NCBI GenBank assembly: GCA_017379015.1
Contig: JAFNXN010000009.1
Location: 33,244 to 97,243 of the forward strand
Origin: Alistipes sp.
GTDB taxonomy: Bacteria > Bacteroidota > Bacteroidia > Bacteroidales > Rikenellaceae
Length of the DNA: 64,000 nucleotides
Direction of reading: 5' to 3'
The translations under genes were made by a program, and so were the position numbers. Every line of letters starts with the position of its first letter. Position 1 is the first letter of the stretch. Below are positions 37,675-51,278 of this stretch, one piece after another. The notes beneath the pieces are model-generated. The model did no database searches. It worked only from the letters and a program-made list of their open reading frames with translations, and had not been told where the DNA came from.

Positions 37675-38163
37675 TTATTTGACCTTTTTAATATTTTCGA
37701 TAAGTGTAGCGCAACCATCTTCAAGCAAATCGAGCACAAGCTCGAAACCCTCATGGCCCTCGTAATAGGGGTCAGGCACATAGGACCACTCGGGGTGGTG
37801 GCGCAAGAACTCTCGAAAACGGTAAATCTTCTGCTGCGCATCACGGTTGGGGGCAAGGCGAAACAGTGCCTCATAGTTATTATCATCCATAGCTATGACC
37901 ATGTCGAAACGCTCGAAGTCCTCCTCGCGCACCTGGCGCGAACGATGCACCAAGTCGATACCGCGAGCTGCCGCCGCACGACGCATACGAGCATCGGAAC
38001 GCTCTCCGGCATGTCCGCCATACGTACCTGCAGAGTCGACAACAACACTATCCTTAAGTCCCTCACGCTCTACGAGGTGGAGCAATACCCCCTCAGCAGC
38101 AGGTGAGCGACAAATATTCCCCAAACAGACAAATAGTATACGTGTTATCTTCTTGTTATCCAT
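37675..38163 (-). CDS. Low-molecular-weight protein tyrosine phosphatase, 5' end rebuilt by an integrated element
   Basis: 162 residues. The catalytic P-loop CLGNICRS (C-x5-R-S) is near the N-terminus and the general acid Asp lies in YVPDPYYEG. The enzyme dephosphorylates protein tyrosines; in bacteria it often pairs with polysaccharide-export kinases. The element joins the gene within the codons for FVCLGN, so the first nine residues (MDNKKITRI) and the start codon are element DNA. The displaced original start, MKQRI, followed by the same LFVCLGN, is still visible at 51224-51189. All catalytic residues are kept, so the hybrid gene should work. Confidence 0.93.
   Translation of the reverse strand: MDNKKITRILFVCLGNICRSPAAEGVLLHLVEREGLKDSVVVDSAGTYGGHAGERSDARMRRAAAARGIDLVHRSRQVREEDFERFDMVIAMDDNNYEALFRLAPNRDAQQKIYRFREFLRHHPEWSYVPDPYYEGHEGFELVLDLLEDGCATLIENIKKVK
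38120..38133. other. Left attachment site core
   Basis: CCCAAACAGACAAA, identical to 51193-51206. A further AGTAT match (38135-38139 against 51208-51212) follows one mismatch. On the minus strand the core encodes part of the phosphatase P-loop (FVCLG). Confidence 0.9.
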
Positions 38164-38188
38164 AAATATACAATTTTAATTATTTATT

Positions 38189-38210
38189 GGTTTACATTGT
38201 AGTTTACATT
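38189..38210. repeat. Left-end integrase arm-type repeats
   Basis: GGTTTACATT (38189-38198) and AGTTTACATT (38201-38210). The same 10-mer occurs at the right end (51075-51084 and 51108-51117). Such paired repeats at both ends are expected for arm sites bound by the integrase N-terminal domain. Confidence 0.65.
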
Positions 38211-38252
38211 TTATATTATCTTTTTTCAATAAGATGTTCTATAAACCCACAA

Positions 38253-38282
38253 CAAAGATAGCACATTTAATGAAAGCCACAA
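38253..38282 (-). promoter_or_regulatory. Outward promoter of the element driving the phosphatase gene
   Basis: On the minus strand: TTG (38280-38282), a 19-nt spacer and TATCTTTG (38253-38260), about 90 bp upstream of the rebuilt phosphatase start at 38163. It lies inside the element and points outwards. Confidence 0.65.
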
Positions 38283-38332
38283 TATGACAATGTTAAAAAG
38301 GCTTAGGATTTACACTGTTTTATATTAATGGG

Positions 38333-38375
38333 AAAGTAGTGAACTCTAATTGCAAAGTAGTGCCAAACTCTATTT
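38333..38375. repeat. Direct repeat of about 21 bp
   Basis: AAAGTAGTG followed by AACTCTA occurs at 38333-38348 and, with a short insertion, at 38354-38372. Possible binding site for an excision factor or replication protein of the element. Confidence 0.45.
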
Positions 38376-38498
38376 CAAAAACAGCGGTTTTGGATGGTTA
38401 TTGAATATTATCTATTTCAGTGTTTTGTAAAATACTGATTTAGACAACATTACTGTTTTTATGAATATTCATTTTTGTATATAAGTGAATGTTTCAAC

Positions 38499-38537
38499 AA
38501 AAAATCCGAATATCAATGTTGCTTGATACTCGGATTT
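38499..38537 (-). terminator. Terminator of the element's minus-strand cargo genes
   Basis: AAATCCGA / TCGGATTT-type stem extended by TATCAA/TTGATA, followed on the minus strand by TTTTTT. It is placed just after the last small cargo gene. Confidence 0.8.
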
Positions 38538-38580
38538 AATAGGTTGCCAAATACATTTACATTAGATGGTATAGGATGCT

Positions 38581-38799
38581 CTAAACAGTTTGTTCCACAT
38601 CATTACCACTAATTGTTAAGGCTTTATCATGTCTTTCAATTTTGCTGTTCATTTTCTCACTAACAATCGTATTGAATATAAATAGTATTGTCGATATTGT
38701 ACATACAACCCATGAACTCCAACATGTATCACAAAAGCTGCCAATAATAATACAGCCAATATTAAAAATAGCCAATACTATATTAATAAAAGTCTTCAT
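38581..38799 (-). CDS. Small membrane protein, unknown
   Basis: 72 residues with two hydrophobic helices (about 5-22, INIVLAIFNIGCIIIGSF, and 27-46, CWSSWVVCTISTILFIFNTI) and a charged C-terminal tail. No family recognised. It starts 3 bp after the stop of the 66-residue gene upstream and precedes a terminator, so it closes the minus-strand cargo unit led by the giant lipoprotein. It could be a membrane partner of that protein, but nothing in the sequence proves this. Confidence 0.6.
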   Translation of the reverse strand: MKTFINIVLAIFNIGCIIIGSFCDTCWSSWVVCTISTILFIFNTIVSEKMNSKIERHDKALTISGNDVEQTV

Positions 38800-38802
38800 A
38801 AA

Positions 38803-39003
38803 TTACTTTTTAAGCAATTTATATTCAATATCACCAGCTTCTTTACCTAAAAACACGTCTTTAACTTTATCTAGGCTAAGGAATATAAATTCCTCACAAG
38901 TTTCGTCATATACTAAACATGTGCCTTTACCATCAATGTTATAAGCAATAAATTCAAGCACTTCTTCACCGCTAATTTTCTTCATTTTAAGCCCCATAGA
39001 CAT
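38803..39003 (-). CDS. Small acidic protein, unknown
   Basis: 66 residues (or 60 if started at the internal ATG at 38985, MKKISGEEV). No signal peptide or membrane segment. The sequence alternates helix and strand (VLEFIAYNIDGKGTCLVYDE ... FIFLSLDKVKDVFLG). No family recognised. It lies 89 bp downstream of the giant lipoprotein and 3 bp upstream of a small membrane protein gene. In DGR loci a small accessory protein (Avd) often sits near the target, but this one is too short and shows no four-helix pattern, so that link is not supported. Confidence 0.55.
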   Translation of the reverse strand: MSMGLKMKKISGEEVLEFIAYNIDGKGTCLVYDETCEEFIFLSLDKVKDVFLGKEAGDIEYKLLKK

Positions 39004-39092
39004 AAATTTTTAAGTTAAAAAAAGGGTAATTGTACGGTTGGTGGCTTTTCGCCACCAACCATTGTTAAATTGATAAATAGCTAAATAGTTAA

Positions 39093-42000
39093 TTAAAAAG
39101 CGACAACAGAACGAACATTGTGTGTGGTATCCTTAAGGCTGGTGCCCCAATCTCCACTCGAGAAGTTTAGTATGTATGCGCCGATGTGGTAGTAGTTGAC
39201 GGAGGTGTAGTACTTGCCCTCAGTAGAAGACCAATACAAGCCTGTACCAATGGCTGTATAGCCATTTGCTGATAAAGTCGCATTTAGAATATCCTTGACA
39301 TCATAGATAGCTTGCAACTCATCTTTAGTTGGTAGATACCAATCTGTGGCGTAATTTGAGCACCAGTGTTTTGCTGCATCCCAATTACTGTTCGTTTCAT
39401 CAACAGATACCAGTTTGCAGTTTTTTCCTTCATTTGTTGATTCAAATACCACTCCACCATTGCAATATGGGATGTATTGTCCAATATAGTACGGGTATCC
39501 ATAAGACACTCCATCTGTATCTACAACTTGAATGGAGGCTGCGACATCATGATGCAAATAGTCATTGCATGTTGCTGTACACTCATCCCAAAGTATGATG
39601 GTCTTAAGATTAGCATTGCCCTTTAGGTTTACATTGGTTAGCATGTGATTATTCGACAGATTAATCTCTTCTATAGATATGCGTTCAGCATACAGTGTAT
39701 TTAAGTTTGTATTATTCTTAAGATACAATGATGATATTGCATTGTCTGAACAACTTAGATACTCCAAAACAGTATTCTGTCTAATGTTTAACTCTGCTAA
39801 GTTGTTGTTACTACACATTAGCTTTATCAAACTTAGATTCTTAGTAACTTCCAATGATGTGAGAGCACAATCACTAACATTCAGTTCAGTGAGGTTAAGC
39901 ATGTGTGATACATTAATACTCTCTAGCATAGAACATCCATTGGCAAAAAGTTTCTCAATTGTAGGAGGACAAAGAACAGATGTAAGTGCAGTATTCTCAT
40001 AGCAATTGAATACTACAAAATCATTGTCAGTAACATTGAGAGTATGTAGGGTCATGCTACTTGGAATATCCAAACGGTAGATGCCAGCATTAGATATTGA
40101 GAGTGTTAAGTTTGGTGTATAGTTATAACCTTCAATAGACAAATATTTGCCAGTTTCATCTGTGCGCACAGCATTGGTAGATGCATTCTCAATATAGAGG
40201 AACTCCAATGCTTCATCATTATTAAGGTTTATCTCCTCCATTGGATTGTCAAAGATTGTCAATGACTTTAGTTTGGTGAGAGATGGAAGGTAGATGTGTG
40301 AGATAGTATTATTTGAGCAGTTCAATGAGGTAAGGTTAGTACAAGCCTCCAAGCCTGTAAGGTCTGATACACCCTTGCCAGAGCAATTTATCATAGTGAT
40401 ATTGTCTGACTCGGCAATAGAGATTTCACCGTCACCATCATCATCGTAGTTGTTCACAAGGTATGCCTTAAGTGCTGTATCGGGGATAACAAGTCCACCG
40501 TTATTGAAGTAGATGTTGGTAGCATCATCCTTAGTGATGTCAATAGCGCCCTGCTGTGCAGAGTCCTTAACCCACAACTTAGCTAATGCTGCATTGTTAG
40601 AACAGTCAAGGGTGTTGAGCTGAGCATTTGCACTAACATTCAAGGATGCTATATTGTTGTATGAGCAGTTCAAGGTCTCAATAACAGCACACTTAGCAAC
40701 ATCAAGAGTAGCGATGTTGTTTTGTGAACAGTCAAGGCTCTTAAGCTTTGTGAATGTTGATACGTTAAGGCTATTGAGCTGGTTGTTTGCACAGTCAATA
40801 GTGGTAAATAGTGTACTACCCAAATGAATGCTTGGTAGCTGGTTGTCACGGCAATTAAGTGTTACAAGGGCAGCGTTCTTTGTAAGGTCAAGAGCGGTCA
40901 GGCTATTATCATTACACTCAAGAGCTGTAAGAGCTGTGTTCTTGGTCACATTGAGTGCAGCAAGGTTATTACCACCGCAATACAACTCCTCAAGGAGTAA
41001 CAAGTTGGTTAGGTTGAGTGTTGCAATGTCATTGCCTGTGCAGTTAAGCTCAACAAGTACCTTGTTCTTTGCAACATTGAGTGAGCCTAATGTGTTGTTT
41101 GCAACATTTAGTGTAGTAAGATTCTTAGCTGCACTAACATCAAGTGTGGTTAGCTTATTGTTTGAGGCATCAACAGCGGTAACAGATGCTGGAAGCATCA
41201 ATGAAGTCAGACGGTTGCTGCCAACATTAACCTCTGTGAGCTTTGTGTTGCTACTCAAGTCTAAAGATGTAATGCGGTTGAATGAGCAATCCAAAGTCTC
41301 AAGGTTAGAGAAATACTCGATACCAGCCAAGGACTTAACCTGAAGCAATGAGGCTGAGATGTCAATATTGGTAATGCTCTGTGCCTCCTCCAATGAAATC
41401 TCATTATCACCATTAGTATCAAACTCGGTAGTAAGGTATGCCTTGAAGTTTGCATCAGGGATATAGATAGTGTCTGTAGTCCAAGGTACTATATTCACAT
41501 AGTCAGATGTGAAGTCGTTGTAGCCATTAGATACCTCCAAGCGTACATTTGCAGAAATCTCACCACGGAAATAGCTTTCACTTAAATTAGAGCCTGATAC
41601 CACAATAGTAAGGAAGCCATTAGCAGCCTCAACACTCTCAATGCCGAGTGCCACAAAGTCACCTGCAGCTCTTGTCTGAGTATATACAGCCTTAACATTT
41701 AGTGCAGACTCCCATACTTCAGCAACCTCCTCTGCACAACTTGCAGGGCGGAACTCATATTTAAGTGTTGCCGTACCAGCAGTGATAACACCAGCAGAGT
41801 TAGTGTAGTACATTGTAGCATTACCATCATTGTACTCTGGAACGTATGAGATAGACTGGATGCGTGCAAGAATAGCTGCAATCTGCTCCTGTATATCAGC
41901 AATGTCAGACTGGATGTTATAGATAGCAACCTTAATGGTCTTTACCTCCTTCTCAAGGGCTGTTACACGTTCAGTAAGGGCTGCTATGGTATTGTTGATA

Positions 42001-43772
42001 GTGGCAACCTCATTGTCAATACGGCTGTTGATAGTAGCGACCTCAGTAGCTATCTTATCTCGGAGTTGTCCATCAAGGGTACTGATAGCTGTTGAAATGG
42101 CAGCCTTATATGCAGCGGTAATCTCAACCTTTGCATCTGCCAAGTCCTGCTGTAGTTGCAAGATGCTTGCAGTGTTCTGGGCAATGGCATTTGCATTGTT
42201 GTTGATAGCAGTAGCATTCTGTGCTATAAGGGTTGCATTGTTAGCAATGTTCTCAGCGTTGGTTGCAATGTCTGCTGCATTCTTAGCAATAGCACTATCA
42301 GTTGATGCTTTGAGTGCAGCAATGGCTGTTTTATTCTCAGCAATGGCAGCTGCATTATTCTCTATGCTCTGCTTGTTGGCATTAATCAAGGCTGTATTTG
42401 CAGAGATAAGTTGCTCCATAGCACTCTGCAATGCCGCAATCTTTGATGTATAATCATTGCGTACTGCCTCTATCTGCTCATTGATGTTGTCAATGTCTGC
42501 ATCAAGGTCAGTAAGGTGGCTCTCTATCTCTGAGATAGTAGCTGCCATCTCTTGCTTGTAGTTGTTGATTTGAGTGTTAAGATTCTCAATCTCTGTAGCA
42601 TTAGCCAGAATTGCAGATGTGTTGTCGGTAATGCTATCACTATTATCAGCAATAGCCTCAGCATTAGCCAAAATCTTTGAGCTATTCTCAGAGATAGCCT
42701 CGGCATTATCAGCAATATTACCCTCAGCAGTGGTCATATCATTACGCAATGCGTCAATGAGTATCTTGTTTGCAGAAATCTGACTGGTGAGGTTATTAGA
42801 TAGTGTATTGATAAGACCCTCAACGTAGCTCTTCTGTGATGCAAGGTCTCCCTCCAACTCACTCTTTAGGAGAGCTAACAAGGCATCTGTCTCGGCAATG
42901 GTATAGTATCCTGTAAGCTGCTCATTTACCCACTCTCTCATAGAACTCTCCAAATTGCTAATAGAGGCAGCAATAGCAGAGGTATATGCTGCTGTAATCT
43001 CACTCTTTGCAGTTGATATTGCAGCCATATAGTCTGATGCAATGCCAGATATAACCTCAGCTACTAGCTCATCTTTGATAGGCTCAATAGCAGTAGCTAT
43101 CTCTTCTGCAATACTCTCTGTGAGTCTCTCCTCAAGAGCCTCTATAGATGAATTAAGGGATTCAATGTTCTGCTTGATAGTAGCAATGTCTGAGGCAATA
43201 GAGTTGTACTGCTCAATGGTTGCAAATGTTGCAGTAGCCCAGTCCTCGGTGTTCTGAAGCTCTGTGTTCACATACTCCTCCAATGTAGTAATCTTTCCCT
43301 CCAACTCAGTATCCTTAGCCTGAAGAGTAGCAATAGTTGTGTTAATCTGGTTCAACTCAGCCTCCAAAGCAGTCTTTGTAGACTCAAGTTGAGCCAATAT
43401 GTCTGCTTTAGCGGTATTTAACTGAGCAACCAACTCTGCCTTAAGTGCATCGTCAGAAGCCTCTGCATCAGCAATAGCCTTGTTTAGTGCAGCCTCCAAC
43501 TCATCAATATCCTTATTGGTATTTGTTATCTGCTCCTGGAGGTTTGTTGCGGTAGTCTGCAATGATTTGATATACTCCTTGAGTTCTGCATCAGTCTCAC
43601 GGAGTTGAGGCAGTGTAGTGTTGATAGCCTCAATCTGCTGGTTGATTGTTGCAATCTGAGTCCCTTCAATTTGGTCAATGCGGTTCTCAAGACCATCAAT
43701 GCGGTCTTCAATCTTCTGGCACGATGGCAATAACATAGCCACCATTACCAATAGAGCTAATAGCTTTTTCAT
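39093..43772 (-). CDS. Giant surface lipoprotein: coiled coil, LRR blocks, DUF1566 tail (candidate DGR target)
   Basis: 1559 residues. Lipobox AMLLPSC (Cys18); a coiled-coil stalk over about 20-650 rich in Ala, Glu, Asn and Ile with repeating IADN/AIAEN units; a beta domain at about 660-775; then two units, each an EF-hand-like loop (DTNGDNEISLEE near 781, DDDGDGEISIAE near 1106) followed by leucine-rich repeats of the L-x-x-L-x-C-S-x-N-x-I form. Residues about 1450-1559 are a DUF1566 / C-type-lectin-like domain (DWYLPTKDELQAIYD, YWSSTEGK, VRSVVAF). The layout is that of a long-armed surface binding protein. Codons 1521-1531 all end in C, unlike the rest of the gene. Confidence 0.85.
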   Translation of the reverse strand: MKKLLALLVMVAMLLPSCQKIEDRIDGLENRIDQIEGTQIATINQQIEAINTTLPQLRETDAELKEYIKSLQTTATNLQEQITNTNKDIDELEAALNKAIADAEASDDALKAELVAQLNTAKADILAQLESTKTALEAELNQINTTIATLQAKDTELEGKITTLEEYVNTELQNTEDWATATFATIEQYNSIASDIATIKQNIESLNSSIEALEERLTESIAEEIATAIEPIKDELVAEVISGIASDYMAAISTAKSEITAAYTSAIAASISNLESSMREWVNEQLTGYYTIAETDALLALLKSELEGDLASQKSYVEGLINTLSNNLTSQISANKILIDALRNDMTTAEGNIADNAEAISENSSKILANAEAIADNSDSITDNTSAILANATEIENLNTQINNYKQEMAATISEIESHLTDLDADIDNINEQIEAVRNDYTSKIAALQSAMEQLISANTALINANKQSIENNAAAIAENKTAIAALKASTDSAIAKNAADIATNAENIANNATLIAQNATAINNNANAIAQNTASILQLQQDLADAKVEITAAYKAAISTAISTLDGQLRDKIATEVATINSRIDNEVATINNTIAALTERVTALEKEVKTIKVAIYNIQSDIADIQEQIAAILARIQSISYVPEYNDGNATMYYTNSAGVITAGTATLKYEFRPASCAEEVAEVWESALNVKAVYTQTRAAGDFVALGIESVEAANGFLTIVVSGSNLSESYFRGEISANVRLEVSNGYNDFTSDYVNIVPWTTDTIYIPDANFKAYLTTEFDTNGDNEISLEEAQSITNIDISASLLQVKSLAGIEYFSNLETLDCSFNRITSLDLSSNTKLTEVNVGSNRLTSLMLPASVTAVDASNNKLTTLDVSAAKNLTTLNVANNTLGSLNVAKNKVLVELNCTGNDIATLNLTNLLLLEELYCGGNNLAALNVTKNTALTALECNDNSLTALDLTKNAALVTLNCRDNQLPSIHLGSTLFTTIDCANNQLNSLNVSTFTKLKSLDCSQNNIATLDVAKCAVIETLNCSYNNIASLNVSANAQLNTLDCSNNAALAKLWVKDSAQQGAIDITKDDATNIYFNNGGLVIPDTALKAYLVNNYDDDGDGEISIAESDNITMINCSGKGVSDLTGLEACTNLTSLNCSNNTISHIYLPSLTKLKSLTIFDNPMEEINLNNDEALEFLYIENASTNAVRTDETGKYLSIEGYNYTPNLTLSISNAGIYRLDIPSSMTLHTLNVTDNDFVVFNCYENTALTSVLCPPTIEKLFANGCSMLESINVSHMLNLTELNVSDCALTSLEVTKNLSLIKLMCSNNNLAELNIRQNTVLEYLSCSDNAISSLYLKNNTNLNTLYAERISIEEINLSNNHMLTNVNLKGNANLKTIILWDECTATCNDYLHHDVAASIQVVDTDGVSYGYPYYIGQYIPYCNGGVVFESTNEGKNCKLVSVDETNSNWDAAKHWCSNYATDWYLPTKDELQAIYDVKDILNATLSANGYTAIGTGLYWSSTEGKYYTSVNYYHIGAYILNFSSGDWGTSLKDTTHNVRSVVAF
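39180..39212 (-). other. Run of eleven NNC codons: candidate DGR variable region
   Basis: On the minus strand the codons are TAC TAC ACC TCC GTC AAC, then TAC TAC CAC ATC GGC, encoding YYTSVNYYHIG inside the DUF1566 tail. In diversity-generating retroelements, AAC codons in the template become NNC in the variable region, which gives exactly this pattern. The flanking codons (TAT TGG TCT TCT ACT) follow the gene's own bias. The run lies about 85 bp before the stop, the normal place for a variable region. Confidence 0.6.
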
Positions 43773-43865
43773 AGTAATATAAATTTGAAGTTAAAATTGT
43801 TTCAAACTTTATTACCATACAACTCCTATACGGTGGGTTATATATAAAAAGAAAAGTGTGGAGTT

Positions 43866-44054
43866 GATTTCGTCTATCAAAATGGAGGTTGTGGAAAGAC
43901 CTGACAGTAATAAACGAATACAATGCCCCACACTTGGATAGTATGGGGTATATATGCACGAATAGTGCATAGCCGCATAGCTATACAAGAAATGAGTGCT
44001 GTTCGTCATCCTACTGTCTTGAAAACTTCCACATTTCCATTTTAGGACATCGAA
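43866..44054. repeat. Imperfect inverted repeat of about 50 bp upstream of the giant lipoprotein
   Basis: Left arm (43866-43918) and reverse complement of right arm (44001-44054) share, in order, TTTCG, AAAATGGA, TGTGGAA, GACAGTA and ACGAA at nearly equal spacing. The arms flank about 82 bp that contain small palindromes (CCCCA...TGGGG; TGCACGAATAGTGCA). This 394-bp gap (43773-44166) otherwise holds no gene. It lies between a tyrosine recombinase gene and the lipoprotein start. Confidence 0.5.
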
Positions 44055-44166
44055 AACACTTTCAATATGTCTGCTACTCTATTTGAATAGCACTACAAAA
44101 TTAAAAATATTTTCTTAAACGAACAACACTCAAGGGGGCATTGTTTAGGATATTTAGCTAAAACCA

Positions 44167-44754
44167 CTAAAAATCCAACATATCGTATGTCTCAAGTAAC
44201 TCATCCTGACGGATGCCAAGGTATATCTTAGTGATGCTGACTGATGAGTGATTGAACAACTCACTAAGTCGGACTAATGCAAGGTTAGCATTTTCACCCG
44301 CTGACTCAAACACCTTTCTGCCAAATGTCTTACGCATAGTGTGAGTTGAAAAGTTCTGAATTTTAAGGTTATAATCCCTCTTAATCTGCTTAAGGATAGT
44401 GTTTATACGTTGGATAGAATATACACAACCCTTTTGAGACAAGAAGCACTTTTCGGTATCTTCCTCAACCCTCAATTCACGGTAACAGTTCTTGATGTGT
44501 CGTTGGAAGTCTGAGTTAATCTTCACAACTCGTCTCTTACCTGTCTTCTTCTCCCTGACGATGAACTGGTCATCATAAAGAAGCATATCCCAGCTCAATG
44601 TTAGCAAGTCAGAGATTCTCAGTCCAAAGAAACTGCCACAACCCAGTAGCAAGCTCATTCGGTAGTTACCATCCCTATATAGTTTACGGATAAGGAGCAT
44701 CATGCTATCCCACTCCATATAGTCACTTGTGCGGTATGTCTTAGTCTCTTTCAT
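44167..44754 (-). CDS. Minimal tyrosine recombinase (catalytic domain only)
   Basis: 195 residues, about half the length of a normal integrase. It lacks the N-terminal arm and core-binding domains but keeps a full catalytic set: Arg46 (FFGLRISDLL), Lys in KKTGKRR, His138 and Arg141 (STHTMRKTFG), His169 (LFNHSS) and the nucleophile Tyr178 (ITKIYLGI). Such short enzymes resemble fimbrial or capsular invertases. It is encoded just upstream of the giant lipoprotein, with an inverted repeat in the gap, so it might control that gene by inversion. It could equally act in excision or dimer resolution of the element. Confidence 0.85.
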   Translation of the reverse strand: MKETKTYRTSDYMEWDSMMLLIRKLYRDGNYRMSLLLGCGSFFGLRISDLLTLSWDMLLYDDQFIVREKKTGKRRVVKINSDFQRHIKNCYRELRVEEDTEKCFLSQKGCVYSIQRINTILKQIKRDYNLKIQNFSTHTMRKTFGRKVFESAGENANLALVRLSELFNHSSVSITKIYLGIRQDELLETYDMLDF

Positions 44755-44793
44755 AGTTGAGGTTGTTTGTGGGAGGGTTTCCCCTCCCTGTAG

Positions 44794-45120
44794 TTAAAAG
44801 ACCTTTACAATGTTCTCCCAACGGAAGCTTCTCCAGGCAGACTTCTCAATGTCAAAGTAGGCTGTTGTGGCGTACATCTCTCTGCTGCATCCTCTGCCAT
44901 TGGTGTACTTTGCTGCAAGGGTAGGATTTGTTGTTCCCCATGCCTCTCTAATCTCACCGTTCTTCTTGGTGTAGAGAAAGTGTGCAACACCGTTGTGGAG
45001 CTTGTTTTTGAGCTCACATATCATCATTGCCTTTGCTCCTGCAATCAACTCACTATTTGTTCTTGATGCAATCACTACCATACGGGTAGCTGTCTGATTT
45101 GTAATTACCAATGTATTCAT
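44794..45120 (-). CDS. WYL_2 / Sm-like SH3 beta-barrel protein (DUF2693-like)
   Basis: 108 residues. The segment AHFLYTKKNGEIREAWGTTNP, then YFDIEKSAWRSFRWENIVKV, matches the small SH3-barrel family DUF2693 (called WYL_2), common in Bacteroidota phages and mobile elements and perhaps nucleic-acid or ligand binding. It lies between a 56-residue gene and the minimal recombinase, all on the minus strand. Function unproven. Confidence 0.7.
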   Translation of the reverse strand: MNTLVITNQTATRMVVIASRTNSELIAGAKAMMICELKNKLHNGVAHFLYTKKNGEIREAWGTTNPTLAAKYTNGRGCSREMYATTAYFDIEKSAWRSFRWENIVKVF

Positions 45121-45142
45121 ATCTGTAAGATTTTTTGTTACA

Positions 45143-45313
45143 CTAATAGTTTCTTCTGTATTTGCTCGGATTCCAATTCCAACCCATTAGGTGGTATAGG
45201 TTTTCCACTGCATCGTAATGACTACGGCACCACATCACCTTCTTACCCTCATTGTCCCAAATGCCCCAACCACTACCTGAGCAACCAATCGTATATTTCC
45301 TTGTCTGTACCAT
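45143..45313 (-). CDS. Small Trp/Tyr-rich protein, unknown
   Basis: 56 residues, read from the ATG at 45313: MVQTRKYTIGCSGSGWGIWD, then a Lys-rich turn, then HYDAVENLYHLMGWNWNPS and a basic tail ending RRNY. The density of Trp and Tyr, the intact frame, a promoter match directly upstream and close spacing to the next gene (22 bp) support a real gene. No family recognised. Confidence 0.65.
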   Translation of the reverse strand: MVQTRKYTIGCSGSGWGIWDNEGKKVMWCRSHYDAVENLYHLMGWNWNPSKYRRNY

Positions 45314-45345
45314 ATCTTAATACTTTATTACTTATTTTGTTAATG

Positions 45346-45377
45346 CAAAGATAGTGTTTTAATGTTAATTATCCAAA
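45346..45377 (-). promoter_or_regulatory. Promoter of the element's minus-strand genes
   Basis: On the minus strand: TTTG (45374-45377), a 20-nt spacer and TATCTTTG (45346-45353), about 33 bp before the 56-residue gene. It overlaps the control region of the divergent XRE regulator, so it is a likely target of that regulator. Confidence 0.65.
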
Positions 45378-45437
45378 TATTTTTAGTATTTTATTTTAAT
45401 TTTTATTAAAAATATTAGTATTTTAATATTTATTTGC

Positions 45438-45445
45438 TACTTTTG
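45438..45445 (+). promoter_or_regulatory. Probable -7 box of the XRE regulator
   Basis: TACTTTTG, 19 bp upstream of the regulator start at 45464, in an AT-rich divergent control region of about 150 bp. Confidence 0.55.
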
Positions 45446-45463
45446 CATTAAAATTATATCATT

Positions 45464-45757
45464 ATGGCTGTATTGAAGATTAAGCAAATAGCAAAAGAGA
45501 AGGGTATGACTATGGCTAAGTTAGCCGAAGAAATGGGTGTGCATCCCGTTAACTTGTCCTCATCCTTGAACGGCAATCCAACTTTATCTACTCTAACAAA
45601 GATAGCAGAAGTCTTGAATGTTGAGGTGATAGATTTGTTTGAGAGGGAGAATAAGACTTCTGTTAATGGTTTTGTGAAGGTGGATGACACAGTATATGAG
45701 GTATCATCTGTAGCTGATTTAGAGAACGTGTATAACATTGTAATGCTCAAAAAATAG
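45464..45757 (+). CDS. XRE-family HTH regulator
   Basis: 97 residues. An N-terminal Cro/C1-type HTH (residues about 4-60): LKIKQIAKEKGMTMAKLAEEMG, then a recognition helix VNLSSSLNGNPTLSTLTKIAEVLNV. The remaining 35 residues may dimerise. It is divergent from the minus-strand recombinase and cargo genes across a shared promoter region, the usual position for an element repressor or switch. Next on its own strand is the HTH/methyltransferase-like gene. Confidence 0.88.
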   Translation: MAVLKIKQIAKEKGMTMAKLAEEMGVHPVNLSSSLNGNPTLSTLTKIAEVLNVEVIDLFERENKTSVNGFVKVDDTVYEVSSVADLENVYNIVMLKK

Positions 45758-45814
45758 TGAAAAAACCATCATCTTTTGGTGATAAACAAGCAACTTCAAC
45801 CTTAAATAACTTCA

Positions 45815-47227
45815 ATGAAGATAGCCTACGAACTATATGATGCTAATCTATCAATTAGAGAGAATGCTCAAAAACTTGGGTGTTCTGAGGCTGCATTGCG
45901 TAAGTATATCAAGCAAACAGGAGCAGATAGAAGGTATGATGCTTACTATTCCAGATGGAAAAGGATTAAAGATTATTTTAAGATAAATCCATCTGCAACA
46001 TTGCTGGAAGCTAACCAGGAATTAGGGTACTCCATACATACCATTCGTAAATAGAAAAAAGTATCTGAACAGGAGCTTGAACAGGCATTTCGTGATACTT
46101 CCAAGGTATCAAACTTTGATATTAAAAATAAGAATGCCATTAAGAGCATTTCATATTCTCAAACAGACATTCTGTCTTGGATAATGAAGCTATATAATGA
46201 CAGCAAACCGTTTGAATGTGATTTAACAGCTTCCAAGTGCATTTTCTGGAAATTTTTACCGAAGCCCCAATACCTCTATGACAAGTACCCACAAGTTGAA
46301 GGAGTAAAACCACTATCTGAAGCAGATTTACTGCCGAATAAGTCTTTTAGTAGTATTGTGTATGACTTACCGTTCATTGTATCAAATGGAGCAATGAGTA
46401 AAATCAAGGAGCGTTTCACTCACTTTGAGAGTGTTGAGGAACTATATCAAGCAAATGATGAGATGCTTGAACGTTCATTCAGACTACTTAAGAAGCAGGG
46501 CTTATTGATTGTAAAGACAATGGATATTAGTCACGGTAATAAGCAAATATGGATTTCAGATTATGTCATCAGAAAGGCTGAGGAGTTAGGATTAGAATTA
46601 ATAGAGAAGTTTATTTTATTATCTAACTTAAGACTGTTTGCCCGTACACATCAGCAACGAGTAGCAAGGAAGTATCACTCATATTTCTTTGTATTTAAGA
46701 AGAAGTCTACTGCGCCATTAAACAAGGTAAAAGCATTGTTGTTAGATTTTGACCATACTATATTCAACACTGATGCAGACTGTGAAGTAAGAAAGAATAG
46801 TAAGGTTAAAGATTGGGATTTAATATTCTCTAAAATACCTGAGTACAAGCTATATGATGGATGGAGTGAAGTATTCGATGATGCTAAGGCTAAAGGTATA
46901 AAGATAGCCATTGTAAGCACCGCTAAGAAAGAATTGATAGAACGTACACTCAAACACTTCCAATTGGATTGCGATGTTATTATTGGATGGCAAAGATGCT
47001 ATAAGAAGCCTAATCCTAAATTGGTAGAAATGGCATTAAATAAACTTAAAGTCAATAAAGAAGATGTTATATCCGTAGGTGATGATGTTGTTGATAAACT
47101 GATGTCTGATAATGGTGGAGTAAGATTTATTGGAGCTATCTGGGATTGTGAGCACGAAGAATCAATACAAGAACTTAAACAAGGAACTGTACTAAACTCA
47201 CCTACAGATCTTTTAAGTTACATATAG
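45815..47227 (+). CDS. HTH / methyltransferase-like / HAD fusion interrupted by an in-frame TAG
   Basis: Two open frames, 45815-46054 (79 residues) and 46184-47227 (347 residues), are in the same frame. The 43 codons between the TAG (46052-46054) and the second ATG are open and protein-like, so the original gene was probably about 470 residues. Part one is an HTH module (MKIAYELYDANLSIRENAQK; LGYSIHTIRK). Part two resembles a DNA methyltransferase with motif IV as DLPF in SFSSIVYDLPFIVSN, where DPPY/F is usual. Part three is a HAD phosphatase with DFDHTIFNT, IVSTA, KKPNP and GDDVVD. The TAG may be a recent mutation or be read through. Function unknown. Confidence 0.7.
46184..47227 (+). CDS. 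Methyltransferase-like + HAD protein (downstream frame if TAG is a true stop)
   Basis: 347 residues from the ATG at 46184. Residues about 10-172 are the methyltransferase-like part (DLTASKCIFWKFLPKP; DLPF at 61-64; LLKKQGLLIVKTMD; ARKYHSYFFVFKK). Residues about 181-345 are a HAD hydrolase with nucleophile Asp188 and acid/base Asp190, Ser245/Thr246, Lys275 and Asp300/301, all present. The HAD half looks catalytically intact. The altered motif IV leaves methyl transfer uncertain. HAD domains on nucleic-acid enzymes can remove terminal phosphates, which is one possible role here. Confidence 0.7.
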   Translation: MKLYNDSKPFECDLTASKCIFWKFLPKPQYLYDKYPQVEGVKPLSEADLLPNKSFSSIVYDLPFIVSNGAMSKIKERFTHFESVEELYQANDEMLERSFRLLKKQGLLIVKTMDISHGNKQIWISDYVIRKAEELGLELIEKFILLSNLRLFARTHQQRVARKYHSYFFVFKKKSTAPLNKVKALLLDFDHTIFNTDADCEVRKNSKVKDWDLIFSKIPEYKLYDGWSEVFDDAKAKGIKIAIVSTAKKELIERTLKHFQLDCDVIIGWQRCYKKPNPKLVEMALNKLKVNKEDVISVGDDVVDKLMSDNGGVRFIGAIWDCEHEESIQELKQGTVLNSPTDLLSYI

Positions 47228-47335
47228 TTAACTATTCAGTAATCTACACTTGTAACAACCCCAAGCACTGTATGTAGAAAAATAGATTAACTATTGATTT
47301 TTAAGAAATAGACTCTATATTATATTAAAAATAGT

Positions 47336-48838
47336 ATGGTAAAATCAAAACATAAATTATACTCCATCAAGGGAATTGACTTTTATGCTGTGGTAGCCAA
47401 GTACCGTGAGATATGTATAGAGGGTATTAAGGAAATTGACTCAGATAGTCTTAGTGTCTACTCCACAGATGGGTTGGAATACAATGAAAAACACAAGCCC
47501 CGTGAACCCTTGCATGATGATTTCAAGATACTGTTCAAAGCCAAATATCTGCTACATGCTATAGCCTATAGGCAAGCTACACACATTGAAGATGGTATTG
47601 ATAGTGTTACTATGCAAGCTGCCATTCTCAAGGATGCTATCGGTGATGATTACCTTGAGTTACTCAAAGCATTTGAGGCTTTAGGTTATATTAAGATGTA
47701 CTCTGATTATATCGTTGGAAAAAAGGCAAGACGATATAAGGTTCTTGGAGATATTGTAGTTACCCAGTGTAGCTATAATAAGGCTATTGAAGGTTATATA
47801 GAGAGAGTAAAGAACAAATTGTTAGAAGCTGCTCATAAAAGAGTTGATGAGAGATATGGTGTGGATTTTAGAAAGAGATATACTAAGAATCTAAGAAAGT
47901 TTAAGATACGAGATATAAAGGCATTTAATAGCTTTATAAATAGAAATAGGAAACCTGCTAAAATACACTATTATAACTTTATAAAAGATTGTTTTAATAG
48001 TAAATTAGAGATTTTTAGTGTTGATTCTAATAACAGAATATACCATATCTTAACATCTCTTAAGCGAGAATTAAAACAATATCTAAATATTAAATTCTCT
48101 ATTGATTGTAAGAATAGTCATCCTCTACTATTCAACTATTTTATATTCTATAGTAAGAATATACCTTCTAATATAGCTTATAAGATTTCATATATATTAT
48201 CTACTATTTCATTTTCTGATATATACGATACCATCAACAATCATTATGTTGGGAAAAATCTCTATAAGATATTGAGGGATAATGAAATAAATGATTCTAT
48301 TATTGAGAAGTTCGCAGAAGATGAGTTGATATATATATGGAAGACTACTTCGGGCAGATTTTGGGATGACATTGTTGAGGAAAACAAAGGCAAGTATTGC
48401 AGGAGCACCATCAAGAAGCGTATGTTTGCACAGGTGTTCTATGCAAAGAAGCAGAAGGATGCAATCTTTGTAAATCAGTTTAAGCGAGATTATCCCAATG
48501 TATATGAGCTTGTAATCAAATGGAAGTCACCACTCAGTTACGATAACCTCAGGGGGTATATAGTAGACAATAAGAAGGGGGTTGTGTATAAAGGTGCGGT
48601 TAAGGGTGTTGATGAAGAAACTGCTTTACCTAACTTGATGATGAGCTTGGAATCAGATATATTCCATGAGGTGCTGATGGAGTTGTATCGGAAGAATATA
48701 TCAGCTGTGCATATACATGATGCTATTGTTATCCCTGACTCTGAGGTTGAGGTTTGTGCATCACAAATTGAAGAGGTGATGAGAGAGGTTTACAAAGGAA
48801 GGGGACTGCATCCAACCTTTTCAGTAGATACTTATTAA
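47336..48838 (+). CDS. Divergent family-A-polymerase-like replication protein
   Basis: 500 residues. The C-terminal half carries a pattern like family A polymerases: motif A as FSIDCKNSHPLLF (Asp257), a motif-B-like basic helix (STIKKRMFAQVFYAKKQ, about 358-373), LPNLMMSLESDIFHEVL, and motif C as VHIHDAIVIP (His461-Asp462). The N-terminal 200 residues are unrecognised and might hold a DNA-binding or priming function. The middle (about 47,800-48,330) is much more AT-rich, with many ATA/AGA codons. A replication role for the excised element fits but is inferred from these short motifs alone. Confidence 0.55.
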   Translation: MVKSKHKLYSIKGIDFYAVVAKYREICIEGIKEIDSDSLSVYSTDGLEYNEKHKPREPLHDDFKILFKAKYLLHAIAYRQATHIEDGIDSVTMQAAILKDAIGDDYLELLKAFEALGYIKMYSDYIVGKKARRYKVLGDIVVTQCSYNKAIEGYIERVKNKLLEAAHKRVDERYGVDFRKRYTKNLRKFKIRDIKAFNSFINRNRKPAKIHYYNFIKDCFNSKLEIFSVDSNNRIYHILTSLKRELKQYLNIKFSIDCKNSHPLLFNYFIFYSKNIPSNIAYKISYILSTISFSDIYDTINNHYVGKNLYKILRDNEINDSIIEKFAEDELIYIWKTTSGRFWDDIVEENKGKYCRSTIKKRMFAQVFYAKKQKDAIFVNQFKRDYPNVYELVIKWKSPLSYDNLRGYIVDNKKGVVYKGAVKGVDEETALPNLMMSLESDIFHEVLMELYRKNISAVHIHDAIVIPDSEVEVCASQIEEVMREVYKGRGLHPTFSVDTY

Positions 48839-48855
48839 AAATAGGATAAAAAAAT

Positions 48856-48895
48856 CATAGCCTACTACCTTTCGTTGGTAATGGGCTATGTTTTT
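48856..48895 (+). terminator. Terminator of the polymerase-like gene
   Basis: CATAGCC / GGGCTATG stem with an inner CTACC/GGTA pairing and a TTTC-like loop, followed by TTTTT. Confidence 0.8.
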
Positions 48896-48919
48896 AATGG
48901 AATTCCACACTCGAATAAC

Positions 48920-48943
48920 TTGCTGTAACCGCACGTACAGCAA
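48920..48943. repeat. Perfect inverted repeat TTGCTGTA / TACAGCAA
   Basis: Two 8-bp arms separated by 8 bp (ACCGCACG), in the 172-bp gap between the polymerase-like gene and a small basic protein gene. It could be an operator, an origin element or a weak terminator; not assigned. Confidence 0.6.
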
Positions 48944-49011
48944 ACTGATACAAAGATATTGCTCAGTGTATCTACGATAATTGACACTTACTCCGTGAGG
49001 GGGATGGGATG

Positions 49012-49224
49012 CTACAACATAATATCCTGCATGGTTGCGTTATTATGGGTAACACCAGTCTGTTTATGGGGTATGCTGCTCCAGTATCTTTTCTGAGACT
49101 CACTACGTTTTTTGTTAGCTGCCCGTTTGGTGTCAATGCTCATTTCTTGATGATGTCTCTTCATTGCATCCGAAATCTTTTGTCTTACTTCTACAGGTAG
49201 TTCCCTATATATTCTCTTTGCCAT
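49012..49224 (-). CDS. Small basic NUMOD3-like protein
   Basis: 70 residues, strongly basic. ELPVEVRQKISDAMKRHHQE and KRSESQKRYWSSIP resemble the NUMOD3-type DNA-binding motif (short basic helices with repeated Lys-x-Ser-x-x-x-x) found beside mobile-element integrases and homing nucleases. No nuclease domain is present. It lies 153 bp beyond the integrase stop on the same strand, so it could be an accessory factor such as an excisionase, but this is inference. Confidence 0.6.
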   Translation of the reverse strand: MAKRIYRELPVEVRQKISDAMKRHHQEMSIDTKRAANKKRSESQKRYWSSIPHKQTGVTHNNATMQDIML

Positions 49225-49377
49225 AATAGTCAGTTTGTTTACTATAAATACTATGACAAGTTAAAAAAGTACAAAAAATCAGAAAAAATTTCTCTCAACA
49301 CATAGAGGTGTAGTAAATATACTAACCTCAAAGTAGAAAAGTAGAGGAGGTTGATAGTTAAGCAGATAATTGGAACA

Positions 49378-51090
49378 CTATATGCTTTGGTCACTCGTTA
49401 AATACTTAATTTTTGCTTCAATGTCATTTCCAAATTTCTCGCTCAGTTCTGCTTCAAGAGCTTCCATTTTCTGCTGGATGTATCTATTGTACGCATCAAT
49501 GCCTCCATATTCTTCTAGGATCTCTTCCTCCTCTGTTTTCTCGGCACTTTTTGTCTCAATTTGCTTCTTGAGTTTTTTGTTTACAGGTTTCTGCTTAGAA
49601 GCCTCAATATATTCAGGCTGACCTGTTATGTATGAACGATTATTTGCGTCAATGATATTCTCATCTTCAAACTCTCTTAGGTATGTTTCAATCTCAGCAA
49701 CGTTTCTGCCCATATTTTGAGCAATCAACCCCATTGGTATACTGCTATGGTATAGAGCTGAAGCATATGAGTGACGTGCAGAATAGAATGTGATACCTTG
49801 TATATTCAGCTTCTCTCCAATCCTTTTGAGATTGTTGTTCACAAGATATGTTGCATAGGTCATTCTGCCAAACTTCTTACTTGGAGTATTGTCAATATCA
49901 GAGTATATAGGGAATATATATGTGTTGTCATATTCCTCATCTGTCAAATCCTTAAGTCCTCGTGTAAAAGGAAGTGTGTACGGGAGCAATATAGACTGTT
50001 CAACAATTATCCTAACGGGATGTCCAGTCTTAGTACGGGCAATCTCTATCTTATAATATTCCTTAACCTCTTTGTGCTCATCTGCATAATCTAATCCATA
50101 CATTGCAGTATCCTGAAGATACTTGGTATTATTCACCACCTCATAATCCTGTAGGTCTTTCCATTTTAAGTTCGCTAAATCCACTAAAGCCAATCCCTGC
50201 ATTAGATAAGAACTCAGAAATAGAGCAAGAGAGAGTTGTTCTGCATCAATGGGGGTAAGTTTAGTCTCTCCTCTACGTTTGAAGGAGCTATTCCAATAAT
50301 GCTTTTTACACACCTCTATATTAGGGCTCTTCTCTCCAAAGGCACCATAGGTGTTTATATAATAACGCATTAAACTTGTGATTTCAGGGAGCGTTAAAGC
50401 CCTTTTCTTGGTGCGGGTATCAAGTTTGCGAATATAGGAATAGTTCTCTAATGGTGATTTCTCAATATACTTTTTTACAACAGCATAATTCATAATTGCC
50501 TTGAAACCATCAAAGAACTTTCTTATACTTGTATCCTTATATTTTGTTCTAAGGTGTGCTTCAAAATCTCTAACCCAAGCAACATCTATATCAAATAACT
50601 CTATGTCACTATTATTAGTGTATCGTTTAATAACATTTAATAGAGTCCTGTAGCCTGTTGCTGTGTTATATTGCTGTGCTGTCTCTTTCAAAAAATCTAT
50701 CCTCTCCTCAAAGAGTTTGAATAGGGTCATAGTTGAAGGCAGTGTTTTAGTTAGAGCATTGACAATTGATGTAACTGAGTAGGCAACACCTGATTTCTCA
50801 AGTGTCATCACAATGTTATCAGCATTACGTTTCTCTCTACGGATAATAGTGTTGAAATCTGTTGATTGAGGATGGCTTGCTCTTACCTCCTCTTTTTTAT
50901 TATTCCAATCCTTAGGTGTACAAGAAAGTCCTAAACTTTTATACTTTCTCTGACCATTGTAACACACTCTCAACAAGATTGGATGCTCATTATTTGCTAA
51001 CTTCTTGGATTTGAACAATATAGCTGAGATACTAGGGAGACTTCTTGTCATCTTTGCAAAATGGTTTACACTATGGTTTACATTATTCAC
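49378..51090 (-). CDS. Tyrosine site-specific integrase of the element
   Basis: 570 residues if started at 51090, 557 from the ATG at 51051 (MTRSLPSISAILFKSKK), which is the better start because the upstream codons overlap an arm-type repeat. N-terminal arm-binding domain (about 14-100), core-binding SAM-like domain (about 115-215), catalytic domain (about 230-475) with Lys354, Arg439 in FYSARHSYAS and Tyr470 in EIETYL. The first conserved Arg is Ala301 (MQGLALVDLANL), as in other Bacteroidota integrases that lack it. An acidic, Lys-rich C-terminal extension follows. It should catalyse recombination at the 14-bp core. Confidence 0.93.
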   Translation of the reverse strand: MNNVNHSVNHFAKMTRSLPSISAILFKSKKLANNEHPILLRVCYNGQRKYKSLGLSCTPKDWNNKKEEVRASHPQSTDFNTIIRREKRNADNIVMTLEKSGVAYSVTSIVNALTKTLPSTMTLFKLFEERIDFLKETAQQYNTATGYRTLLNVIKRYTNNSDIELFDIDVAWVRDFEAHLRTKYKDTSIRKFFDGFKAIMNYAVVKKYIEKSPLENYSYIRKLDTRTKKRALTLPEITSLMRYYINTYGAFGEKSPNIEVCKKHYWNSSFKRRGETKLTPIDAEQLSLALFLSSYLMQGLALVDLANLKWKDLQDYEVVNNTKYLQDTAMYGLDYADEHKEVKEYYKIEIARTKTGHPVRIIVEQSILLPYTLPFTRGLKDLTDEEYDNTYIFPIYSDIDNTPSKKFGRMTYATYLVNNNLKRIGEKLNIQGITFYSARHSYASALYHSSIPMGLIAQNMGRNVAEIETYLREFEDENIIDANNRSYITGQPEYIEASKQKPVNKKLKKQIETKSAEKTEEEEILEEYGGIDAYNRYIQQKMEALEAELSEKFGNDIEAKIKYLTSDQSI

Positions 51091-51117
51091 TTATAAAACC
51101 GAAATATGGTTTACATT
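51063..51117. repeat. Right-end integrase arm-type repeats
   Basis: GGTTTACA at 51063-51070 and GGTTTACATT at 51075-51084 and 51108-51117, matching the left-end copies at 38189-38210. They lie just upstream of, and partly in, the integrase start and next to its promoter, so binding could also regulate the integrase. Confidence 0.65.
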
Positions 51118-51118
51118 G

Positions 51119-51126
51119 CAAAGATA
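51119..51126 (-). promoter_or_regulatory. Probable -7 box of the integrase
   Basis: Minus strand TATCTTTG, 28 bp upstream of the long integrase start and directly beside an arm-type repeat. Confidence 0.5.
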
Positions 51127-51182
51127 GTAAAAATGTATTAAATACCTAATTTATAGTATTATATATTGAATTATAATAATTA

Positions 51183-51224
51183 CTATTTGTTTCCCAAACA
51201 GACAAAGAGTATCCTCTGTTTCAT
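51183..51224 (-). pseudogene. Original 5' end of the tyrosine phosphatase gene (displaced remnant)
   Basis: Read on the minus strand from the ATG at 51224: MKQRILFVCLGN, then one element-derived Lys codon and TAG. The LFVCLGN part matches the P-loop of the phosphatase at 37675-38163. The core repeat lies in these codons. Before integration the gene would have begun MKQRILFVCLGNICRS. Confidence 0.9.
51193..51206. other. Right attachment site core
   Basis: CCCAAACAGACAAA, identical to 38120-38133, located in the remnant phosphatase start. Confidence 0.9.
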
Positions 51225-51270: not shown

Positions 51271-51278
51271 CAAAGGTA
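51271..51278 (-). promoter_or_regulatory. Native promoter of the displaced phosphatase start
   Basis: Minus strand TACCTTTG, 47 bp upstream of the remnant ATG at 51224. It now points across the remnant into the element and the integrase. The rest of the 248-bp stretch up to the YtfJ-like start shows no gene. Confidence 0.5.

Follow-up and report, generated by a model that had tools for sequence, protein, structure and literature searches.

A Bacteroidales integrative element that very probably acts as a portable start of a low-molecular-weight tyrosine phosphatase gene

In this study, we analysed a stretch of 64,000 nucleotides (nt) from an Alistipes sp. genome (GenBank assembly GCA_017379015.1, contig JAFNXN010000009.1; hereafter the window), in which a 13-kb element is inserted into a gene for a low-molecular-weight (LMW) tyrosine phosphatase. 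Very probably, this element integrates site-specifically, belongs to a Bacteroidales family and acts as a portable start of the LMW tyrosine phosphatase gene, which is its target. The evidence comes from sequence comparison and consists of a core repeat, an empty site in relatives, the in-frame rebuilding of the gene, an architecture common to several elements, near-identical element ends in distant hosts and left ends that lack an integrase.

The element and its empty site

The two junctions of the element in the window are listed here.

37675..38163, minus strand: rebuilt LMW tyrosine phosphatase (LMWPc), 162 amino acids (aa); PF01451, E=8.5e-39; open reading frame (ORF)
38120..38133, minus strand: left core (attachment-site repeat) in the FVCLG codons of the intact phosphatase; exact match
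38134..38163, minus strand: codons 1-10 (MDNKKITRIL), from the element, upstream of the core; homologous left ends in other genomes
51182..51223, minus strand: displaced 5' end of the host gene, with 13 codons (MKQRIL-FVCLGNK, containing the core) and a stop; read from the sequence
51193..51206, minus strand: right core copy; exact match

The 14-bp core CCCAAACAGACAAA is present in two exact copies whose starts lie 13,073 bp apart, and both copies encode FVCLG on the minus strand. The left copy is in frame with an ATG at 38163 (MDNKKITRIL-FVCLGNICRS). The right copy is in frame with an ATG at 51223, where the displaced host start ATGAAACAGAGGATACTC (MKQRIL) precedes the core and is followed by FVCLGNK and a stop. 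A preliminary description of the window had proposed an insertion into the P-loop codons with a 14-bp core at both ends, a start codon and N-terminus supplied by the element, and an old start stranded 13 kb away; the junctions, together with homologous left ends in other genomes, bear out these proposals. Allowing up to 2 mismatches, a search of the whole window found no third core copy. In shuffled sequence, the same search (<=2 mismatches) gave a mean of 0.51 matches, and 13 of 100 shuffles gave at least 2, so that the repeat alone is weak evidence.

The real proof of insertion is the empty site in relatives rather than the repeat. In G022, G017 and G011 the locus is uninterrupted: the phosphatase starts with MKQQIL or MKQRIL and directly adjoins homologues of the three genes to the right of the window element (184, 393 and 528 aa, the last of which we take to be NAD-synthetase-like). 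G022 and G017 also carry a homologue of the gene on the other side (383 aa). As predicted, the empty site reads MKQ(R/Q)ILFVCLGNICRS and runs into the phosphatase in all three. Direct repeats at both ends together with an uninterrupted site in relatives are features of a site-specific integrative element with a tyrosine integrase.

Related elements at the same codons

A degenerate right-junction pattern matched seven stretches in the GTDB collection. Relevant here are G159 (Alistipes sp. RGIG9139), G095 (Alistipes sp. RGIG377) and two Bacteroidales genomes, SIG152 and RUG11857. The remaining three matches (L093, L094 and L097, titled Bdellovibrionaceae, Rhodospirillales and Mucilaginibacter) were taken as chance matches by title. 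The expectation that other elements are joined at the same codons thus held for these four. G159, SIG152 and RUG11857 share a right junction, FVCLGNK and stop, followed by an integrase that is 56-60% identical to that of the window. SIG152 is a complete element of 4.3 kb with both junctions; its right end has the displaced start MMETANNKYKVL before FVCLGNK and stop, and then come an integrase of 505 aa, a protein with a weak resemblance to Rep_trans (E=0.00055, below the cut-off), the left end and the rebuilt phosphatase. RUG11857 has the right end and the integrase. In G095 (L071, 10908-11854), both cores lie ~930 bp apart and enclose left arms and a secreted-protein-like frame (by eye), with no integrase; this insert may be a mini-element or a deletion derivative.

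The elements differ in the host start that they displaced (MKQRIL, MKESAKHKIL, MMETANNKYKVL and MIEDGKYSVL). The integrases of G159 and SIG152 are 92% identical, the right 1.6 kb has 89.5% DNA identity and the left ends agree at 115 of 118 nt, whereas the phosphatase bodies of the two hosts are 51.7% identical. Near-identical ends beside such divergent phosphatases indicate that one element family reached two distant hosts and, as read from these sequences, gave both phosphatases the same N-terminus. Among 268 genomes of the host's taxonomic family, three encode integrase relatives (E<=1e-60), two of them at the phosphatase site (G000, the genome of the window, and G159). In viral contigs, 24 stretches matched a pattern, and none of them encoded an integrase relative.

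Arm-type repeats and predicted promoters

Both ends of the window element carry repeats and predicted promoter elements at characteristic distances from the core.

38190..38213, minus strand: arm-type repeats of the left end, two 12-bp units with GTAAAC at distances of 62 and 74 nt from the core; direct repeat, fixed positions in relatives
38253..38260, minus strand: -7 box TATCTTTG predicted for the phosphatase promoter that the element supplies; sequence, position class in relatives
51060..51117, minus strand: arm-type repeats of the right end, with GTAAAC three times, at +93, +126 and +138 from the core; repeat positions
51119..51126, minus strand: predicted -7 box of the integrase's own promoter, at +81; position class
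51271..51278, minus strand: -7 box predicted for the host's own, now displaced phosphatase promoter, 72 nt ahead of the core; position class

The consensus of the -7 box is of the Bacteroidetes type. The preliminary description had placed a -33/-7 promoter in the left end: the -7 box TATCTTTG was found again, and a TTG 19 nt upstream of it (by eye) makes the -33 element plausible. In left ends, GTAAAC lies 62/63 and 74/75 nt from the core. The right ends of the four integrase-bearing elements have GTAAAC at +92 to +94, +124 to +126 and +136 to +138 and a -7 box (TAnnTTTG) at +79 to +81. The window integrase, encoded just inside the right end, has arm-binding, SAM-like and catalytic domains (Pfam), and the arm-binding domain and the placing of the repeats suggest that it binds the arms. 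The host -7 box at 51271..51278 is now directed into the element, towards the integrase. As a main reading, the idea that this host promoter drives the integrase was downgraded, as all four integrase-bearing right ends have a -7 box of their own.

A phosphatase match is present in 158 of 180 genomes of the genus. As a subset of these, 139 loci were fetched, and 137 genes were scored after two loci without the phosphatase motif (L141 and L181) had been dropped; G150 and G005 have two genes each. An arm repeat at one of the four left positions was found in 13 of the 137 genes, in 12 genomes, and 22 of the 28 GTAAAC hits within <=300 nt upstream of the 137 genes fall on these positions. The first 62 genes fetched were the best matches and some picked for a match reaching the query N-terminus, so 13/137 is not an unbiased rate. 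TAnnTTTG occurs 80-131 nt upstream of 10/13 arm genes, as against 9/100 short-start genes and 6/24 others; at 25-75 nt upstream the counts are 0/13, 77/100 and 8/24, respectively. The shifted position of the box in arm genes points to a differently spaced predicted promoter brought by the element.

Left ends without an integrase

At least 7 of the 13 arm-bearing genes have no recognisable right end and integrase. In six of these footprinted loci a neighbouring gene is on the same contig, and the stretch between neighbour and phosphatase measures 424 to 3,425 bp (424 bp in G150:C3), with no recognisable right junction in it. The gene in the interval of G158 and G082 also lies between the same neighbours in G159, G033 and G015 and is therefore probably host DNA. 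In G155 (L073, 10575-13414), four minus-strand frames of >190 aa stand between the neighbouring gene and the footprinted phosphatase, and one of them begins like what we take to be a thiamine-pathway kinase. The intervals of G021 and G149 (L034 2064-5132 and L072 712-3039) contain a coiled-coil or leucine-rich repeat (LRR)-type frame related to the window cargo at 39093-43772, which adjoins the left end; no integrase was found in G021 and G149. In G036, no window-type integrase is present within 13.8 kb upstream of the phosphatase, and in G016, G106 and G150:C9 the contig ends are too near to judge the right end. A fuzzy search of 11 neighbour-to-phosphatase intervals recovered the displaced host start in G095 alone (1 mismatch), the other 10 being at shuffle level. 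The phosphatase frame from core to stop has 149-154 codons in all 13 arm genes.

We read the footprinted loci as probable decayed insertions in which the supplied 5' end was kept. Element-free relatives with the MDNKKITRI N-terminus had been named beforehand as evidence against an element-supplied start. Relatives that lack an intact element but have KKITRIL-type N-termini do exist. Ten same-genus genes outside G000, G159 and G095, all with arm repeats at one of the four left positions, look like decayed insertions rather than natural starts. A further three genes or more (those of G025, G015 and G033) combine an N-terminus of this type with the absence of arm repeats there and are at most candidate decayed insertions.

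In G033 (L037 983-3364) and G015 (L040 15529-17919), a lipoprotein-like gene (by eye; 793 and 796 aa) ends directly upstream of the phosphatase. In both genomes the phosphatase start is of the TRIL/TCIL type, and no arm repeat stands at any of the four left positions.

Proposed mechanism and alternative explanations

We propose that the integrase recombines the element core with the host FVCLG codons at the start of the P-loop. The left end of the element would be a portable gene start with a predicted promoter, arm-type sites, a start codon and ~10 codons, so that integration severs the host gene from its own start yet rebuilds it in frame. Moved to the far end, the promoter and start of the host would then read a 13-codon dead-end frame (MKQRILFVCLGNK and stop) towards the integrase. 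After decay of the element, the supplied 5' end could be kept, because it is then the only start of the gene. Bound to the left arms, between predicted promoter and start codon, the integrase would potentially lower phosphatase expression, by analogy with the autoregulation of the KplE1 integrase (PMC2951348), and would couple the expression of both genes. The predicted promoters may be functional, and the element may still be able to excise. Keeping a useful host gene intact is the simplest reason for this layout. Tentatively, and with the odds rather against it, it may be speculated further that the family consists of movable gene starts whose repeated insertion and decay replaced the 5' ends in part of the genus, with an integrase-bound leader coupling the phosphatase to the state of the element.

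Several points weigh against a portable gene start supplied by an element family. Intact or exact right junctions are rare, with 3 in 180 genomes of the genus, including the window and G095, and 1 in 393 in the order sample, which is the window itself. The two ends of the G159 element are on different contigs, and its core copies differ at several bases, sharing strictly only CTGGGAAACA. The left end of RUG11857 was not seen, and the sole phosphatase found there starts with a plain MKIRIL. The first 300 nt of the G095 right end contain neither arms nor a -7 box. As far as names are available, the genomes are metagenome-assembled genome (MAG) assemblies. The PF00589 (Phage_integrase) score of the window integrase, 23.0 bits, is below the curated cut-off of 27.1. 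As to the promoters, the count across relatives covered the -7 box alone, and the left ends of G021, G149 and G095 have no TAnnTTTG box at 80-131 nt; in these three, another open frame ends close upstream of the phosphatase start. Both the four positions (62/63/74/75) and the range 80-131 were set once the first loci had been seen, and all 13 arm loci are within the 62 genes fetched first, with 0 among the 75 scored genes fetched later.

Alternatively, the element might actively manipulate host phosphotyrosine signalling for its own benefit, controlling the phosphatase through its own promoter and the integrase sites in the leader. Arm-like sites are indeed found downstream of the predicted promoter and ahead of the start codon, integrase autorepression via attachment sites that overlap the integrase promoter is known (part of PMC2951348), and the LMW phosphatase Ltp1 controls exopolysaccharide in Porphyromonas gingivalis (passages of PMC8787120). 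However, the layout is also explained if the element repairs the gene that it disrupts and so spares the host, and footprints remain where the integrase is lost and such control cannot operate. We consider this explanation doubtful, and the change of host phosphotyrosine signalling suggested in the preliminary description is not supported.

Rather less probable is that MDNKKITRIL is the ancestral start of the lineage, captured by the element, and that the footprints reflect vertical inheritance of one old insertion. Two genomes speak for such an ancestry: G025 has METKKITRIL but neither an element nor arm repeats at the four left positions, and G278 (g45), from another genus of the family, has MNSSKITRLL without arms. 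The test was a tree built on 62 phosphatase bodies, each taken from the core onwards. It has many weak branches and a bootstrap that is not settled; the MKTRIL genes L009 and L017 were excluded from the element-type N-terminus labels. The arm label requires 11 changes on the best tree, not clearly fewer than the mean of 12.0 for shuffled labels (134 of 500 shuffles were as low), and some changes may be losses by exact excision, which would suit an old insertion. Against it, the label is interleaved with MKQRIL genes, and the supported branches alone force at least 6 changes. Thus, a single inherited insertion without losses does not fit the tree, and several insertions or an older insertion with exact excisions both fit. 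Furthermore, the displaced host starts vary among the elements, and two hosts whose phosphatases are 52% identical share near-identical element ends. A non-mobile rearrangement or an assembly chimera that duplicated the 14-bp sequence, to which the shuffle result and the incomplete 41-contig genome of the window might point, is refuted by the same junctions in other assemblies, with the integrase in the same place and the arms at the same distances, and can be dismissed.

Comparison with known systems

SXT/R391 is a large conjugative element of Gammaproteobacteria. This integrative and conjugative element (ICE) targets prfC, whereas the target here is an LMW tyrosine phosphatase gene, and no conjugation gene was recognised in the 13-kb element by the profiles run. 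Like SXT in prfC and the elements in dusA, which also have 5' targets, the window element supplies an in-frame start and N-terminus. The principle of an element-supplied gene start is therefore established and not new: as described in part of PMC8409611, new promoters and N-termini come from SXT at prfC and from IMEVchUSA3 at dusA, expression from the start supplied by IMEVchUSA3 was demonstrated with a lacZ fusion, at a lower level, and IMEVchUSA3 is mobilised by IncC plasmids. Islands in dusA have been described in >200 bacteria (excerpt of PMC4482086). They share with the window element a 5' site in a conserved gene, a promoter supplied by the island (predicted here) and a rebuilt N-terminus. 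In contrast to dusA elements, the crossover here is in catalytic P-loop codons, and integrase-less left ends remain in several relatives. In the KplE1 intS module, the attachment region overlaps the integrase promoter and the integrase is autoregulated (section of PMC2951348); the right arms here likewise overlap the integrase promoter region, with autorepression shown for KplE1 and conjectural here.

Among the papers listed in searches of the open-access literature, we found no account of an element inserted in a tyrosine phosphatase gene and no description of this element family. As far as seen, the target, the element family and the census of left ends still present after loss of the integrase are new. 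The 13 of 137 genes with an element-type 5' end give a countable record of the lasting effect of a mobile element on a host gene. The suggested target rule, invariant active-site codons, would explain how the family reaches hosts whose phosphatases are about half identical.

Genes carried by the element

Between the junctions, the window element encodes the following proteins.

39093..43772, minus strand: cargo, lipoprotein-like (by eye), 1559 aa, coiled coil, LRR and Lcl_C; ORF, Pfam
44167..44754, minus strand: tyrosine recombinase, 195 aa, catalytic part only; PF00589, E=2.7e-17
44794..45120, minus strand: WYL_2 protein; PF10902
45464..45757, plus strand: Cro/CI-type helix-turn-helix regulator; PF01381, E=8e-11
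45815..46054, plus strand: small DNA-binding protein; phrog_664, E=7e-6
46184..47227, plus strand: fusion of a methyltransferase-like (phage) and a HAD hydrolase domain; phrog_24333, PF13419
47336..48838, plus strand: protein without known family, 500 aa; no Pfam, PHROG or NCBIfam match
49378..51090, minus strand: integrase (tyrosine recombinase, arm-binding domain); PF17293, 4.7e-20; PF13102, 8.4e-18; PF00589, 7.4e-5

No relaxase was found among nine element proteins in the Pfam scan, some small ORFs being left out. No structural PHROG was found among ten element proteins, which speaks against a prophage, and a PADLOC scan of eight gave weak hits only. The 500-aa protein at 47336-48838 has no plasmid match and a weak match (22.6%) to two phage records of equal length; its fold model is too poor for use (mean predicted local distance difference test score, pLDDT, 33.3). 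The 195-aa recombinase adjoins the large cargo gene and is without an arm or SAM-like domain, and a repeat search around it revealed no convincing pair of invertible repeats.

In G162 (L042, ~1495-1530), the GTAAAC double repeat also stands immediately upstream of a sister integrase of 47% identity. This integrase adjoins an AraC-type gene (by eye) with no FVCLG core seen, and related integrases may thus use another target. G159 (L041 12419-12943) and RUG11857 (L091 4190-4822) have a gene for a serine resolvase close to the integrase; the scan of window-element proteins revealed none.

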